Source: a virus. From it: DNA of 34,699 bases. Below the pieces are notes generated by a model. That model did not search any database. It had not been told where the DNA came from and was given only the letters and a program-made list of their open reading frames with translations. The translations under genes were made by a program, and so were the position numbers. This document shows, piece after piece, positions 28,710 through 34,699 of the stretch (the stretch's first letter is position 1; each line of letters starts with the position of its first letter). The stretch lies in IMG/VR virus record IMGVR_UViG_3300032220_001013, positions 1 to 34,699 of that record; one strand, written 5' to 3'.

Positions 28710-28997
28710 TCAGCCAAACTTAAAAGGGATTTCTGAATCAATCTCATCCTTGCCGCGCACCTCACGCGGATAGGAAGGCTTTTGGTAATTCGGGTCCGGC
28801 TTCCAGTTATCAATGCGAAGCCCGACGCGCGTGCCCCAACTGTACTGGTTGATCCAGCCGTTCAGCTTCACGGTTTCGCCCGCCTTGTAATCGCGGTCCA
28901 AAACCAATTCCCCCTTATAGTCGGGGGACTTTTCGTTCTGCTTTTCGCCGCGTGCACTGATAGAACCCGTGCCGGGCTTGTGTTGAAAACTACTCAT
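28710..28997 (-). CDS. Putative single-stranded DNA-binding protein, 95 aa
   Basis: A small beta-rich protein (YKGELVLDRDYKAGETVKLN, GWINQYSWGTRVGLRIDNW) with a disordered start. Near the end is DEIDSEIPF followed by KFG, which resembles the acidic DDDIPF tip that SSB proteins use to contact partners, though here it is not the last residues. It lies directly beside the RecT-like gene, overlapping it by eight bases. The SSB role is an inference from these features. Confidence 0.6.
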   Translation of the reverse strand: MSSFQHKPGTGSISARGEKQNEKSPDYKGELVLDRDYKAGETVKLNGWINQYSWGTRVGLRIDNWKPDPNYQKPSYPREVRGKDEIDSEIPFKFG

Positions 28998-29742
28998 CTG
29001 CGAGTTCCTTTCTCAGTTGATCCGTAACGCTGGATGGCAGGCTATCAATCAGTTCCTTATTCGCTGACCAAAGCCCACGCATTTTCTCGCCCTTCTCCTC
29101 AACGCTCAGTTTGTCGGAGAACAGCACCTTGCCGGCGAGTTCGTTGAAGGTCTTGACCCAACCCTCAACGCTGCTGGCCTTGGAGTAAATGCCACCGCCC
29201 GGCACCATGACCGGATAGGTTTCAGCCGGAGGCGTAACCTCAACGACGGTGGCCTTAACGTCGCGCGCAGGCTCCATGTCCTGCACTTCCTCAGGCGTGT
29301 ACACGCCGACAATGCAGCCGGGATACACGGTGCGGATGCCTTCGCTGATGCAGCGAGCGCGCAGCATTGCCTTCGGGTAGTTCTTCCAGTTGTCCTTGGT
29401 GGCGAGGCCGATAGCCTTGGCTTGCGCCATGGTCCAAGTCACTTCGAGTGAGCCACCTTGCGGGTGAGCAAAAAGACCGCTCACCACCTCATCTGTGTAT
29501 TTTGTCCAAGATACAGACCCGCCCGCCTGTTGGAAGCGCGCCAGCATCGCGTCAGCCTTGAGCGCCGGGCGCCCCTGAATGACGTGATAATCGCGCATGG
29601 CAATGGCCGGATGCAGCCCCTCGCCCTGGCAGAGAAGCATGATTGCGAGCGCCTCGTCGGCAGACTTGAAGCCAAACATGCGAGATTTGGCCGCAACGTC
29701 AGCCATAGCCCGCATGTCAGCGAATGGGATGATGTCGCTCAT
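28990..29742 (-). CDS. RecT-like single-strand annealing protein
   Basis: A 250-aa protein. The segment KSADEALAIMLLCQGEGLHP, IAMRDYHVIQGRPALKADAM and the later AIGLATKDNWKNYPKAMLRA then VYPGCIVGVYTPEEV match the pattern of phage proteins annotated as RecT/recombination mediators. They anneal complementary single strands made by the partner exonuclease. The YqaJ exonuclease gene at 30193 in the same operon supports this. The C-terminal 80 residues are variable and charged. Confidence 0.75.
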   Translation of the reverse strand: MSDIIPFADMRAMADVAAKSRMFGFKSADEALAIMLLCQGEGLHPAIAMRDYHVIQGRPALKADAMLARFQQAGGSVSWTKYTDEVVSGLFAHPQGGSLEVTWTMAQAKAIGLATKDNWKNYPKAMLRARCISEGIRTVYPGCIVGVYTPEEVQDMEPARDVKATVVEVTPPAETYPVMVPGGGIYSKASSVEGWVKTFNELAGKVLFSDKLSVEEKGEKMRGLWSANKELIDSLPSSVTDQLRKELADE

Positions 29743-29942
29743 GCTTCTTCTAGCCCCCTAAGAAAGTGCTTTATGATCTTGTTACGCTGCTCGCGTGCAA
29801 ACGGATCACCGTGCTCCACCCCCTCATCAAAACTGTGCCAAATTTCGATGGCGCGCTTAGTAAGTCGCTCAACATCTACATCCCGACCTTCCGCATACAG
29901 CATCTTGAAAAGGTCAAAGATCATTTCGTAATCGGTTTTCAT
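29739..29942 (-). CDS. Small acidic helical protein, 67 aa
   Basis: ATG 29942 overlaps the stop of the alpha-CTD-like gene by four bases. The protein (DYEMIFDLFKMLYAEGRDVD, ERLTKRAIEIWHSFDEGVEH) is all-helical and charged. No family recognised. It lies between an RNA polymerase-like fragment and the recombination genes. Function unknown. Confidence 0.6.
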   Translation of the reverse strand: MKTDYEMIFDLFKMLYAEGRDVDVERLTKRAIEIWHSFDEGVEHGDPFAREQRNKIIKHFLRGLEEA

Positions 29943-30181
29943 GCCGCTTCTCCTATCGGGCGGTGCATGGGATGGCGCACGTCCTTGCCGGCACGCGCAT
30001 CATCCAACAACGTCTGCAAGCTGTTGCGCCCAACGCCACCAAGTCGAGGCAGGCGCGACAGTTCAAACGGCGTCTTCTTGGCAAGTTCGCCAAGAGCAAT
30101 GTCACCCCACTCATTGAGCACGGCATTGATCGCCGCGCGCTTGGCCATGGTGGTGCTAATCGGAATCAGTTCCCACTTCAT
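29939..30181 (-). CDS. RNA polymerase alpha C-terminal-domain-like protein, 80 aa
   Basis: After AAAGGA the gene encodes a small protein whose residues about 12-60 follow the helix-hairpin-helix pattern of the alpha-subunit C-terminal domain: AKRAAINAVLNEWGDIALGE, LAKKTPFELSRLPRLGGVG, RNSLQTLL. Compare the host pattern of GDLV..T..ELL..PN.G.KSL.EI. No N-terminal assembly domain is present. It may bind DNA or act on host transcription; a plain DNA-binding HhH protein is the alternative. Confidence 0.6.
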   Translation of the reverse strand: MKWELIPISTTMAKRAAINAVLNEWGDIALGELAKKTPFELSRLPRLGGVGRNSLQTLLDDARAGKDVRHPMHRPIGEAA

Positions 30182-30192
30182 TTCACATTCCT

Positions 30193-31092
30193 TTACTTCA
30201 AAAGAAACCGCCGAGAACCCGGCGATTCGACAACGAATTGACTGTAAATATCAGGCATTGACTGCTTGAACAAGTCAGCATTGAAACGCTTTGTGGGCTT
30301 CGTTGCTTTCCATGTTGCTAGAGTTGTGCCGTCTATCGCTCTGATTTCGCTGTAGTTTTCCATCGCGCGCTGCAAATAGGTTTGCAGTTCACCTTCTTTT
30401 GCTTCGAGCATACTGATTTGCTGCTTGATGGTTTTGAGGTCAGCGCAGGCTTTCTCCATCATGCCGTCGGCTTCTTTGAAGCTGCCTTCATCCTTCGGCC
30501 AAGCAATGCGCGCTTGCGCCGGGCTTTCGGGCATTGGCACGGTGTTGGTTCGCACGTGCCCCCAATATACCGCCATCTGCTTGATCAACGCTTCCTTCTC
30601 CATTTCGGAAACGTCAACGCGGTAGGTGCGGAAGAATTGCCCGCCAAAGAGCACCGCGAGGTAAACGGTGTCCACGCCGGCAACGGCAGCTTCATGGATG
30701 CACTGAGCACGATCCGCGTCAGGGATGCGAACCGGCTCGCCTTCGTCGCTGAACTTGTTCATGACCGCCAGCGCGTAGTTCTTGCACTCCACCAAGGTTT
30801 TATTGTCCTCGGTGATGTAATCAAAGTGGCAGCGCAGCCATGTCTCGCGCGGATGGGTGCCGGCGATGTCATAATCCTTCAGCCGTTGCTCGTGTTTATC
30901 TTCCCAAAGCCGGGCAATGACGGGCTGCATGGTGTGACCCATACGCACGTTCTCGAGGTGCGAGATGTCCTCGCGCTCCATCTTGCCAAGTTTGATGGCA
31001 ACGGCTTCAAAGCCGCGCCCGTTGGCGACCAAGCGGCTATCGCCTGACCACCAAGCCGCGTTGCGAACGGCTGGATCGAAGTCGCTCATCAT
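30193..31092 (-). CDS. YqaJ-type viral recombinase / lambda-exonuclease family
   Basis: A 299-aa protein. The nuclease core is seen in residues 14-180: WWSGDSRLVANGRGFEAVAI, MGHTMQPVIARLWEDKHEQR, then catalytic D91 in HFDYIT and E102-C-K104 in LVECKNYAL. A following ADRAQCIHEAAVAGVDTVYL matches the family's Q-containing helix. It chews one strand from a double-strand end so the RecT-like partner can anneal. A C-terminal coiled coil (LKTIKQQISMLEAKEGELQT) is extra. Two adjacent ATGs (31092, 31089) are possible starts. Confidence 0.88.
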   Translation of the reverse strand: MMSDFDPAVRNAAWWSGDSRLVANGRGFEAVAIKLGKMEREDISHLENVRMGHTMQPVIARLWEDKHEQRLKDYDIAGTHPRETWLRCHFDYITEDNKTLVECKNYALAVMNKFSDEGEPVRIPDADRAQCIHEAAVAGVDTVYLAVLFGGQFFRTYRVDVSEMEKEALIKQMAVYWGHVRTNTVPMPESPAQARIAWPKDEGSFKEADGMMEKACADLKTIKQQISMLEAKEGELQTYLQRAMENYSEIRAIDGTTLATWKATKPTKRFNADLFKQSMPDIYSQFVVESPGSRRFLLK

Positions 31093-31988: not shown

Positions 31989-32015
31989 TGACATGAAAAA
32001 TAATGAATGTATGCT
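31988..32015 (+). promoter_or_regulatory. Predicted sigma70 promoter for the replication operon
   Basis: A perfect TTGACA (31988-31993) is followed after 16 bases by TATGCT (32010-32015). Transcription would begin about 20 bases before the gene at 32043. The opposing operon starts at 31913, so this is a divergent control region. Confidence 0.6.
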
Positions 32016-32042
32016 GCCTCAGTCAGAAGCAAAGTGAGTCAC

Positions 32043-32273
32043 ATGGACCAACAGATAACAATTCGCGTCCCGGCGCAGCTAATGGACATTCTGCATGAGG
32101 TGGCGAGGATCGAGGATCGAAGCCTGAACAAAGCCATTCTCCTCCTGTTGAGGTTTGGCGCTTGGGAATGGCTCGACCAGAAACGGAACATGCCAACCGT
32201 GGGGGAATTGATCGAGAGAAAGATTCAGACCCTACGCCCATCGAGGAAGGCGATAGCGGATGAGCAAGAGTAA
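32043..32273 (+). CDS. Arc/CopG-like ribbon-helix-helix protein, 76 aa
   Basis: I chose ATG 32043. The opening strand QQITIRVPAQLMDILHEVAR and the helix EDRSLNKAILLLLRFG fit the ribbon-helix-helix fold of small dimeric repressors, which bind DNA with the N-terminal strand. Residues ARIEDRSLNKAI match the usual helix A to helix B turn. It is the first gene after a strong promoter and overlaps the initiator gene by 14 bases. It is probably an autoregulator of this operon and perhaps of the opposing one. Confidence 0.75.
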   Translation: MDQQITIRVPAQLMDILHEVARIEDRSLNKAILLLLRFGAWEWLDQKRNMPTVGELIERKIQTLRPSRKAIADEQE

Positions 32274-33042
32274 CGCTTGGATGCCGCTCTACGTTGGCGA
32301 CTATATGCGTGATACCTTGCATTTGGACGCCACCGAGCATGGCGCTTATCTCATGCTCATCATGCACTACTGGAACACCGGGCCAGTAAGGGATGATGAC
32401 CGGGCATTGGCAAACATCACACGCGCGGGCGTGCAATGGCCGCAAATCGCCCCAACCATTCGGGCTTTCTTTACCTCTGAAGGCGGCTTCCTGAGACACA
32501 AGCGCATTGACGCCGAACGCGCCAAGTCAGCCGACCTGTCCGACAAACGACGCGCCGCCGGCCAAGCCCGCCAAAGCAAAAGCATAGCAAGTGCTGAGCA
32601 AGTGCTGAGCACACGCTTAGCAAGTGCTGAGCAATTGCACACACAATCACAATCACATTCACAATCACATATACATTCACATATACAGTCACCATCACAG
32701 CTAGAAATAATTCCGCCGTTAAGTCGGCTGACGCCGAAGCCGCGCGCAAAGCGCGCTGAAGTGTTTGATCGAGATTTTGAAGACTTCTGGGCAGCATACC
32801 CGCGCAAGGTCGCTAAAACCGACGCTAGGCGGGCTTGGGACAAGGCGATGGGGGTGACTACCCCGGAGGCCATTGGGGCCGCTCTACGGGCCGCAAAATG
32901 GTCGGAAGACCCCAAATTTATCCCGCACCCCTCAACATGGCTGAACCAGGGGCGATGGGACGACGAAGCCCCCCAAGTAATCCTTCGGGAGCGTCCCGAA
33001 GATATTCTCGCAGCAGCCCAAGAAAGTGACGAACAATGGTAA
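32260..33042 (+). CDS. Replication initiator-like protein (DUF1376 / lambda O-like)
   Basis: A 260-aa protein. The N-terminal 85 residues (WMPLYVGDYMRDTLHLDATE, HGAYLMLIMHYWNTGPV, GGFLRHKRIDAERAKS) are a clear DUF1376 domain, a winged-helix-like domain of phage and prophage replication proteins. Residues about 109-150 are encoded by origin-like DNA repeats and read as low-complexity Ser/Gln/His. The C-terminal part (FEDFWAAYPRKVAKTDARRA, PHPSTWLNQGRWDDE) is a domain common in O-like proteins. It would bind the origin and recruit a helicase loader. Confidence 0.85.
   Translation: MSKSNAWMPLYVGDYMRDTLHLDATEHGAYLMLIMHYWNTGPVRDDDRALANITRAGVQWPQIAPTIRAFFTSEGGFLRHKRIDAERAKSADLSDKRRAAGQARQSKSIASAEQVLSTRLASAEQLHTQSQSHSQSHIHSHIQSPSQLEIIPPLSRLTPKPRAKRAEVFDRDFEDFWAAYPRKVAKTDARRAWDKAMGVTTPEAIGAALRAAKWSEDPKFIPHPSTWLNQGRWDDEAPQVILRERPEDILAAAQESDEQW
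32586..32700. other. Predicted replication origin inside the initiator gene
   Basis: Five abutting 11-bp units occupy 32586-32640. Copies 1, 2 and 4 are AGCAAGTGCTG exactly; copies 3 and 5 are variants. Each exact unit contains the inverted pair AGCA/TGCT. Directly after, 32641-32700 is a hexamer-like CACAAT/CACATT/CATATA tract, AT-rich with almost no G on the plus strand. Iterons followed by an easily melted tract inside the initiator gene is the layout of the lambda origin. Confidence 0.7.
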
Positions 33043-33680
33043 CTGCCCTGCCCCACAATCCGCGCGAGCGCACGGTCAAGGCTTGGTTGCGCGCCCTCCA
33101 CGCGCGCTGCAACGTCAACGCTCTCGATCCGCAGCACGACGCCTATGCTGAAAACCTTTATGACATGATCGGCCAATTTGGCCGGGACTACTTCAGCCAA
33201 GATTCTTACCGTTGGGTCGCCACCGAATGCCCAAAGGGCGCCCCCAATGCCGCGCAGCTTATCGCCCTGCTTACTCAATGGGGGCGAGATCACGACCTTC
33301 AAACCATGAGCAGCGAGGCGCGCGCCTATGTCGCCAAGTTTGAAGCGCGCTGGAGCGAAGGCGCCGACAAGGACATGATCATATCCATTGCCCGGCGCTA
33401 CTACCCGCGCGAGGCATGGGCCGAAATCAGACGTAAGTTTGCCATCCCTGACCCTGACAAGCGTGAGGTCATGACCGACGAAGAACGCGCGGCCACACGT
33501 GATAAATTCGCGCAATTTAAGGCCGAATTTCAGGCCAATATGGAAGCCAGAGAGCAGGGAAAGCCCTTGCCCTTCCCGCCCAAAATGACCGACATCGCCG
33601 ACGAAAACACCACAGAAGACCCGCGCGAAGCCGCGCGAACCGGGAAGCGTTATCGCCCCGTTCATCGGAAACAAACATAA
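33036..33680 (+). CDS. Putative replication partner protein (helicase-loader position), 214 aa
   Basis: Starts seven bases inside the initiator gene (ATG 33036). The protein (PRERTVKAWLRALHARCNVN, DAYAENLYDMIGQFGRDYFS, YRWVATECPKGAPNAAQLIA) is soluble and mostly helical, with a charged C-terminus (DEERAATRDKFAQFKAEFQA). No ATP-binding loop is seen. Its place after the O-like gene matches lambda P and other helicase loaders, but sequence similarity is not evident, so this is a positional inference. Its coding strand is C-rich, unlike the late genes. Confidence 0.65.
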   Translation: MVTALPHNPRERTVKAWLRALHARCNVNALDPQHDAYAENLYDMIGQFGRDYFSQDSYRWVATECPKGAPNAAQLIALLTQWGRDHDLQTMSSEARAYVAKFEARWSEGADKDMIISIARRYYPREAWAEIRRKFAIPDPDKREVMTDEERAATRDKFAQFKAEFQANMEAREQGKPLPFPPKMTDIADENTTEDPREAARTGKRYRPVHRKQT

Positions 33681-34538: not shown

Positions 34539-34699
34539 TCAATTAAACCAACGGGAGGTAATGCCGCGCCCAAAAACCCGCGCAGCATGAACCCGGATAG
34601 CGGCGCCGCGATAGCCGCAATCATCGCGCCAATGGGTCCACAAGGCGCTTGCCAATACCGCGCAAGCCGCGCGCCGATACTCAGTCGGCCAATACTGCC
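34539..34699 (-). CDS. C-terminal part of the junction-spanning hypothetical protein
   Basis: This is the same gene as at 1-379. Here the frame is open from the right edge of the window to TGA 34539-34541 and ends GRGITSRWFN. The stretch 34577-34699 duplicates 1-123; only 34539-34576 is unique to this end. Joined, the two parts give one 138-codon frame. Confidence 0.8.
   Translation of the reverse strand, partial: QYWPTEYRRAACAVLASALWTHWRDDCGYRGAAIRVHAARVFGRGITSRWFN
34577..34699. repeat. Terminal direct repeat, right copy
   Basis: Identical to positions 1-123 over its full length. See the left copy for interpretation. Confidence 0.95.

Follow-up and report, generated by a model that had tools for sequence, protein, structure and literature searches.

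A candidate replication origin within the coding sequence of a DUF1376 phage initiator gene

Why a protein-coding gene should carry, near its middle, a block of short tandem DNA repeats is the question raised by the locus described here. The window, which is the whole stretch of DNA that was analyzed, is the 34,699-nt IMG/VR virus record IMGVR_UViG_3300032220_001013. Positions 1–123 of the window recur at 34577–34699 (base 1 = base 34577). Direct terminal repeats of this kind, here of ∼123 bp, usually indicate that an assembly is circular and complete, and the record appears to be a whole genome of 34,576 bp that is circular (or circularly permuted). In L002, a relative with 97% identity, the end of the window is likewise joined to its start. 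The features of the locus are collected in Table 1.

The initiator gene and its repeat block

The gene that contains the repeats encodes a protein that matches the Pfam family PF07120 (DUF1376) with E = 5e-19 and 68.8 bits, well above the curated cut-off of 30.1, and that also matches PHROG 9327 ("primosomal protein," E = 3e-43) and PHROG 270 ("replication initiation protein"). The AlphaFold2 model of the DUF1376 domain, built from 121 sequences with a mean pLDDT of 92, consists of four helices, a beta hairpin, and a long helix, an order that is predicted to be winged-helix-like. A Foldseek search with this model returned weak matches to MarR-type regulators and to the winged helices of the DnaD N-domain, none with E < 0.001, and no significant match to a solved structure came from sequence or fold searches with the domain. 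The residues encoded by the tract (133–161) are modeled with low confidence and are predicted to form a disordered linker. No functional account of DUF1376 was found in those parts of the open-access literature that were searched.

Pfam and PHROG profile searches gave no confident family match for the product of the gene that overlaps the initiator stop. A leftward module on the minus strand at 28990–31092, divergent from the replication genes, contains genes for a RecT-like annealing protein and a RecE/YqaJ-like exonuclease. The cumulative GC skew of the genome has no turning point at 32.6 kb; its maximum lies near 27.6 kb and follows the switch in coding strand.

Table 1. Features of the initiator locus in the window
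Feature	Coordinates	Strand	Basis
Small ribbon-helix-helix (Arc/CopG-like) gene overlapping initiator start; possible regulator	32007..32273	+	PF03869 E=0.0026, below cut-off
Initiator gene, 260 aa: DUF1376 N-domain, repeat-encoded linker, C-terminal initiator domain	32260..33042	+	ORF, Pfam, PHROG
DUF1376 domain, predicted winged-helix	32278..32517	+	PF07120 residues 7-86; AlphaFold2; weak Foldseek matches
Degenerate sixth unit AGCAAAAGCAT, 5′ edge of array	32575..32585	.	Period-11 segment begins 32572
Iteron array: five 11-bp near-palindromic units (AGCAnnTGCT)	32586..32640	.	
Period-6 tract, coding strand A/C-rich, almost G-free; candidate unwinding element	32642..32699	+	
C-terminal domain FxxFWxxYPRK...PHPxTWLNQGRWDDE, common to initiators with other N-domains	32752..32982	+	
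214-aa gene overlapping initiator stop; place of the helicase loader/helicase of relatives	33036..33680	+	

The array sits mid-gene, between the regions that code for the DUF1376 and C-terminal domains. Its five abutting units are, in order, AGCAAGTGCTG, AGCAAGTGCTG, AGCACACGCTT, AGCAAGTGCTG, and AGCAATTGCAC, of which units 1, 2, and 4 are identical; including the weaker sixth unit, the period-11 segment spans 32572–32638. Each unit is near-palindromic, a property that the preliminary description of this DNA had missed. The tract that follows directly 3′ is unstable and strand-asymmetric, has periods of 6, 12, and 18, and is built from the units CACAAT, CACATT, and CACATA; only 2 G occur within the 68 nt from 32632 to 32699. 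Only two other 70-bp stretches of the genome are less stable (99.6th percentile). Array and tract are the top-scoring short periodicities of the whole 34.7-kb window, which confirms the preliminary account of five 11-bp units, three of them identical, followed by ∼60 bp of almost G-free hexamers. In L002, the span 32000–32774, which covers the whole block, carries zero changes, and 11 synonymous changes fall in the 3′ part of the initiator gene.

The gene was compared with synonymous-codon shuffles, in which the protein is kept and DNA-level repeats are destroyed. At lags 6, 11, 12, and 22, the gene scored higher than all 2000 shuffles, by a large margin over the shuffle maximum at lags 11 (28 versus 17) and 22 (21 versus 14) and by a narrow one at lags 6 (23 versus 22) and 12 (31 versus 28). 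Codon choice is also skewed, as all 7 serine codons of the tract are TCA as compared to 2 of 14 in the remainder of the gene. It had been stated earlier that the repeat is not preserved as peptide. This statement requires amendment since three 11-bp units make 33 nt and the array thus leaves an 11-residue echo in the protein (ASAEQ...ASAEQ); what stands is that the strength of the DNA repeat exceeds what the encoded peptide can account for.

Array and tract among related initiators

Relatives were fetched with the N-domain alone as the query, so the linker was unable to bias the sample. The search yielded 80 viral loci and 80 bacterial genome loci, which are the best-scoring matches rather than a random sample, together with 10 phage records. 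From these, 138 genes under 70% identity were retained, and the 130 with at least 180 nt after the domain form the tested set. The region scanned was 270–330 nt around and after the DUF1376 domain, and 630 other ORFs from the same loci served as controls. Detector thresholds were chosen with the data in view, and identical thresholds were used on the controls. A helix-spaced array was detected in 79/130 DUF1376 linkers as compared to 5/630 control ORFs, a short-unit tract in 65/130 as compared to 8/630, and the two together in 44/130 as compared to 0/630. In all 19 genes in which the two could be mapped, the tract is 3′ of the array. The detector reported neither feature in 30/130 linkers and missed some visible palindromic repeats (e.g., L109).

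In a lag scan of the 130 genes, scores above the 99th percentile of synonymous shuffles were reached by 30 genes at lag 11, 15 at lag 22, and 23 at lag 23, where 1.3 are expected for each, and by no gene at lags 10, 20, or 25; the scan also peaks at multiples of 6. The 8-mers enriched in the relatives over the shuffles include CACCTTCA (41 versus 3), GCAAATGC (34 versus 8), AGCAATGC (33 versus 9), and ACAATCAC (18 versus 2). Counted in 50-nt bins, GCA(n)TGC palindromes reach 68 and 96 within the 100 nt that follow the domain, as compared to ∼5 in other bins; they occupy all three codon frames, with spacings that include 11, 12, 22, 23, and 24. The 9-mers with at least three copies are mostly spaced by 11 or 12 bp or multiples thereof, and their sequences differ among relatives (GCAAGTGC, ATGGCAAA, GGACGCAG, AACG-type, and others). 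The expectation of the preliminary description that unit sequences vary while position and spacing stay is thus borne out. The co-variation of unit and protein that it also anticipated is not, since the Mantel correlation between iteron unit and DUF1376 identity (0.087, ∼2 SD of permutations) is no stronger than that of the C-terminal control (0.075). Repeats elsewhere, which it had named as a point against an origin at this site, are at most in mild excess in the flank examined, with 14 of 51 array-less genes as compared to 11 of 79 array-bearing genes.

The tracts of the relatives are composed of 33% A, 38% C, 10% G, and 19% T. Their hexamers are mostly TCACCT, TCACAG, CCACAA, TCACCA, and TCACAA, with GATACA hexamers in a few phages of gamma-proteobacteria, and the median tract is at the 93rd percentile of local instability. 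Serine is encoded by TCA in 168/193 tract codons (87%) and in 179/1218 codons (15%) of the remainder of these genes, a bias that points to selection on DNA. Together with the shuffle tests, it bears out the earlier proposal that the repeats are conserved as DNA rather than as peptide. The TCAC core stands in a single codon phase in 150/155 cases, and a codon phase that is nearly fixed suggests that the peptide matters too. In addition, the tracts of near-identical phages (L147 versus L153 and L155) differ by two hexamers (12 bp), an instance of copy-number variation.

Not all DUF1376 proteins have the same architecture. Several short ones of ∼150–200 aa (L114, L123, L127, L146, L157, L162, L181, L227, and similar) have no C-terminal initiator domain. 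Arrays were found in 6/14 and tracts in 4/14 of these genes, and retention in some of them suggests that the C-domain may be dispensable or split off. In the linkers of L194 and L245, and in L066, which has another N-domain, a stretch that by eye resembles an HNH endonuclease domain (CxxC...DH...GG.D...NLQPLC..CN) is found between the N- and C-domains, where others carry iterons. This insert is possibly a homing endonuclease aimed at the origin.

The C-terminal domain also occurs with other N-domains, and 67 such non-redundant genes were compared (L006 is out of frame and was left out of the C-domain alignment). Scores above the shuffles were found in 17, 17, and 18 of the 67 genes at lags 10, 11, and 22, with 0.7 expected; tracts of 5-nt units contribute some of the signal at lag 10 through their second harmonic. 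The tracts of this group are A-rich on the coding strand, with 4-nt units in 7 genes and 5-nt units in 12, and the array is again 5′ of the tract (12/12 genes). The same layout in initiators with other N-domains indicates that the design is not tied to DUF1376.

Several pairs of DUF1376 genes (L088/L090, L163/L218, L193/L218, L217/L218, and L201/L215) have unrelated C-domains. Here, the N-domain, array, and tract are mostly 80–95% identical, everything further 3′ is unrelated, and the recombination breakpoints are concentrated immediately 3′ of array and tract. Together with the N-domain, this block appears to behave as a cassette, a pattern for which physical linkage alone could account.

Comparison with known origins and competing explanations

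Phage lambda has its origin within gene O, with iterons to which O dimers bind and a strand-asymmetric tract (PMC7466680, PMC5043065). As a positive control, lambda gene O was subjected to the same scan. Only lags 20 and 23 were flagged, at locus positions 535–618, which correspond to the four annotated ori iterons, and the A-rich tract and then gene P follow 3′. The lambda origin and its Stx-phage variants thus resemble the present locus in having iterons followed by an unstable, asymmetric tract inside the initiator gene, between the regions that code for the N- and C-domains. In lambda, the helicase loader gene follows the initiator gene. At this place, the window has the gene without a confident family match; among 61 DUF1376 relatives, the products of the downstream genes include loaders of the lambda P and DnaC types, DnaB, primase/helicase, and DnaA-like proteins, with P-like, DnaC-like, or DnaB genes present in a share of them. 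However, the DNA-binding family of O (PF04492) was not detected in the initiator of the window, in which DUF1376 (PF07120) is the sole Pfam domain found, and comparison of the two profiles by hhalign gave a probability of 0.6%. The units also differ, with 7–11 bp every 11–12 bp in the DUF1376 genes and 18 bp every 20–24 bp in lambda, and where lambda has an A-rich run, the tract here consists of ordered repeats of period 6 built on a CAC core.

Three other systems were considered. An iteron plasmid replicon was rejected because such replicons have iterons of ∼20 bp outside the rep gene, whereas the units here are 11 bp and inside the gene. The iteron plasmid origins of F, P1, RK2, and R6K are similar in that helix-phased initiator sites lie beside an unwinding element, and they differ in that they bind initiator monomers (PMC5043065), whereas the units here are near-palindromic. 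For Francisella phage KIRK (Phg_2220_C gene fhv_0043), an origin was proposed from the in-gene repeats of a replication gene by analogy to lambda (PMC7924643); that putative origin involves another protein family and is a single-genome prediction without a comparative test. Lastly, the Rac prophage of E. coli K-12 carries an active origin, oriJ (PMC3945230), and encodes the DUF1376 protein YdaU; the next gene, ydaV, is putatively ATP-binding. In the linker of ydaU, weak repeats occur at lags 23 and 33, and the tract in K-12 is short. Where oriJ lies with respect to ydaU was not found in the literature searched.

On these grounds, the feature is very probably a lambda-O-like replication origin within the coding sequence of the phage's own non-homologous, predicted winged-helix initiator. 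This reading, which the preliminary description had put forward, draws its support from the comparison of sequences: array and tract recur in most DUF1376 genes with their position and order unchanged and almost never in control ORFs, they are conserved at the DNA level, loader or helicase genes are often neighbors in relatives, and the lambda control behaves alike. One rival explanation, which we consider improbable, is that the block is only a flexible, low-complexity protein linker grown by slippage, with selection on the peptide or none. The predicted disorder of the tract-encoded residues would fit such a linker, as would the dipeptide linkers (SP, SQ, DT, and QP) that are common in the DUF1376 set. 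Moreover, the fixed codon phase of the TCAC core and the two-hexamer difference between near-identical phages suggest that peptide constraint and slippage each have some part. However, none of the array lags (11, 22, and 23 nt) is divisible by three, shuffles that keep the peptide lose the signal, and neither the preference for TCA serine codons in the tract, the 4- and 5-nt units of initiators with other N-domains, nor the rarity of both features in control ORFs would be expected of a linker.

About equally improbable is that array or tract is an operator or partition site, bound by the initiator or by the upstream Arc-like protein. In favor of this, the gene for the Arc-like protein runs into the start of the initiator gene. 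Omega repressors, which are ribbon-helix-helix proteins, recognize WATCACW repeats, and AATCACA, a sequence similar to this heptad, is present in the tract. Nevertheless, the period of the tract is 6 rather than 7, the hexamers of relatives are mostly of other sequence (TCACCT, TCACAG, or CCACAA), and the upstream neighbors in annotated relatives are unrelated (e.g., PAPS reductase and a cro-like gene). The site is also inside the gene, downstream of the start, in the array-then-tract layout of the lambda origin. Least probable is that the palindromic units act as mRNA hairpins, either as an attenuator or as a stability element. The strand does fold better than shuffles (DNA parameters, z = −3.0), but palindromic repeats fold by construction, the window has zero Rfam family matches, and an RNA role predicts neither the 11–12 bp helical spacing nor the adjoining tract of low stability.

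Proposed mechanism and implications

If the block is an origin, dimers of the initiator would use the DUF1376 domain, with its predicted winged-helix fold, to bind the palindromic, helix-spaced units and would stack into a nucleoprotein array. This array would strain the adjacent G-poor, period-6 tract, which would then open. The opened tract, probably as one strand, and the C-terminal domain would recruit the helicase loader or helicase, which in relatives is often encoded next door. We infer binding, melting, helicase loading, and replication start from the observed anatomy and the DNA-level conservation.

Origins inside initiator genes are already known from lambda and have been predicted for Francisella phage KIRK (PMC7924643). 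What seems to be new, as judged from the open-access literature searched, is the assignment of an in-gene origin to the DUF1376 family, the palindromic array of 11–12 bp, the conserved short-unit tract, and a layout that appears to be general across unrelated N-domains. Our broader hypothesis is held tentatively, with somewhat less than even confidence: DUF1376 may define a widespread, unrecognized class of phage initiators with in-gene origins, the short-unit tract (4–6 nt; TCACNN-like hexamers in DUF1376 genes) may be read as single-stranded DNA in steps of fixed length, similar to the DnaA-trio idea, and the cassette of N-domain, iterons, and tract may be exchanged between C-domains.

How initiators open DNA was still considered an open question in a 2016 review (PMC5043065), and the DUF1376 genes offer a natural series of short-unit tracts with which to study it. 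The family occurs in phages and prophages of many bacteria. If the origin reading is correct, a Pfam family without an assigned function, with ydaU of E. coli K-12 among its members, would gain a testable function as an origin-binding initiator, and origins could be read directly from DUF1376-bearing genomes.
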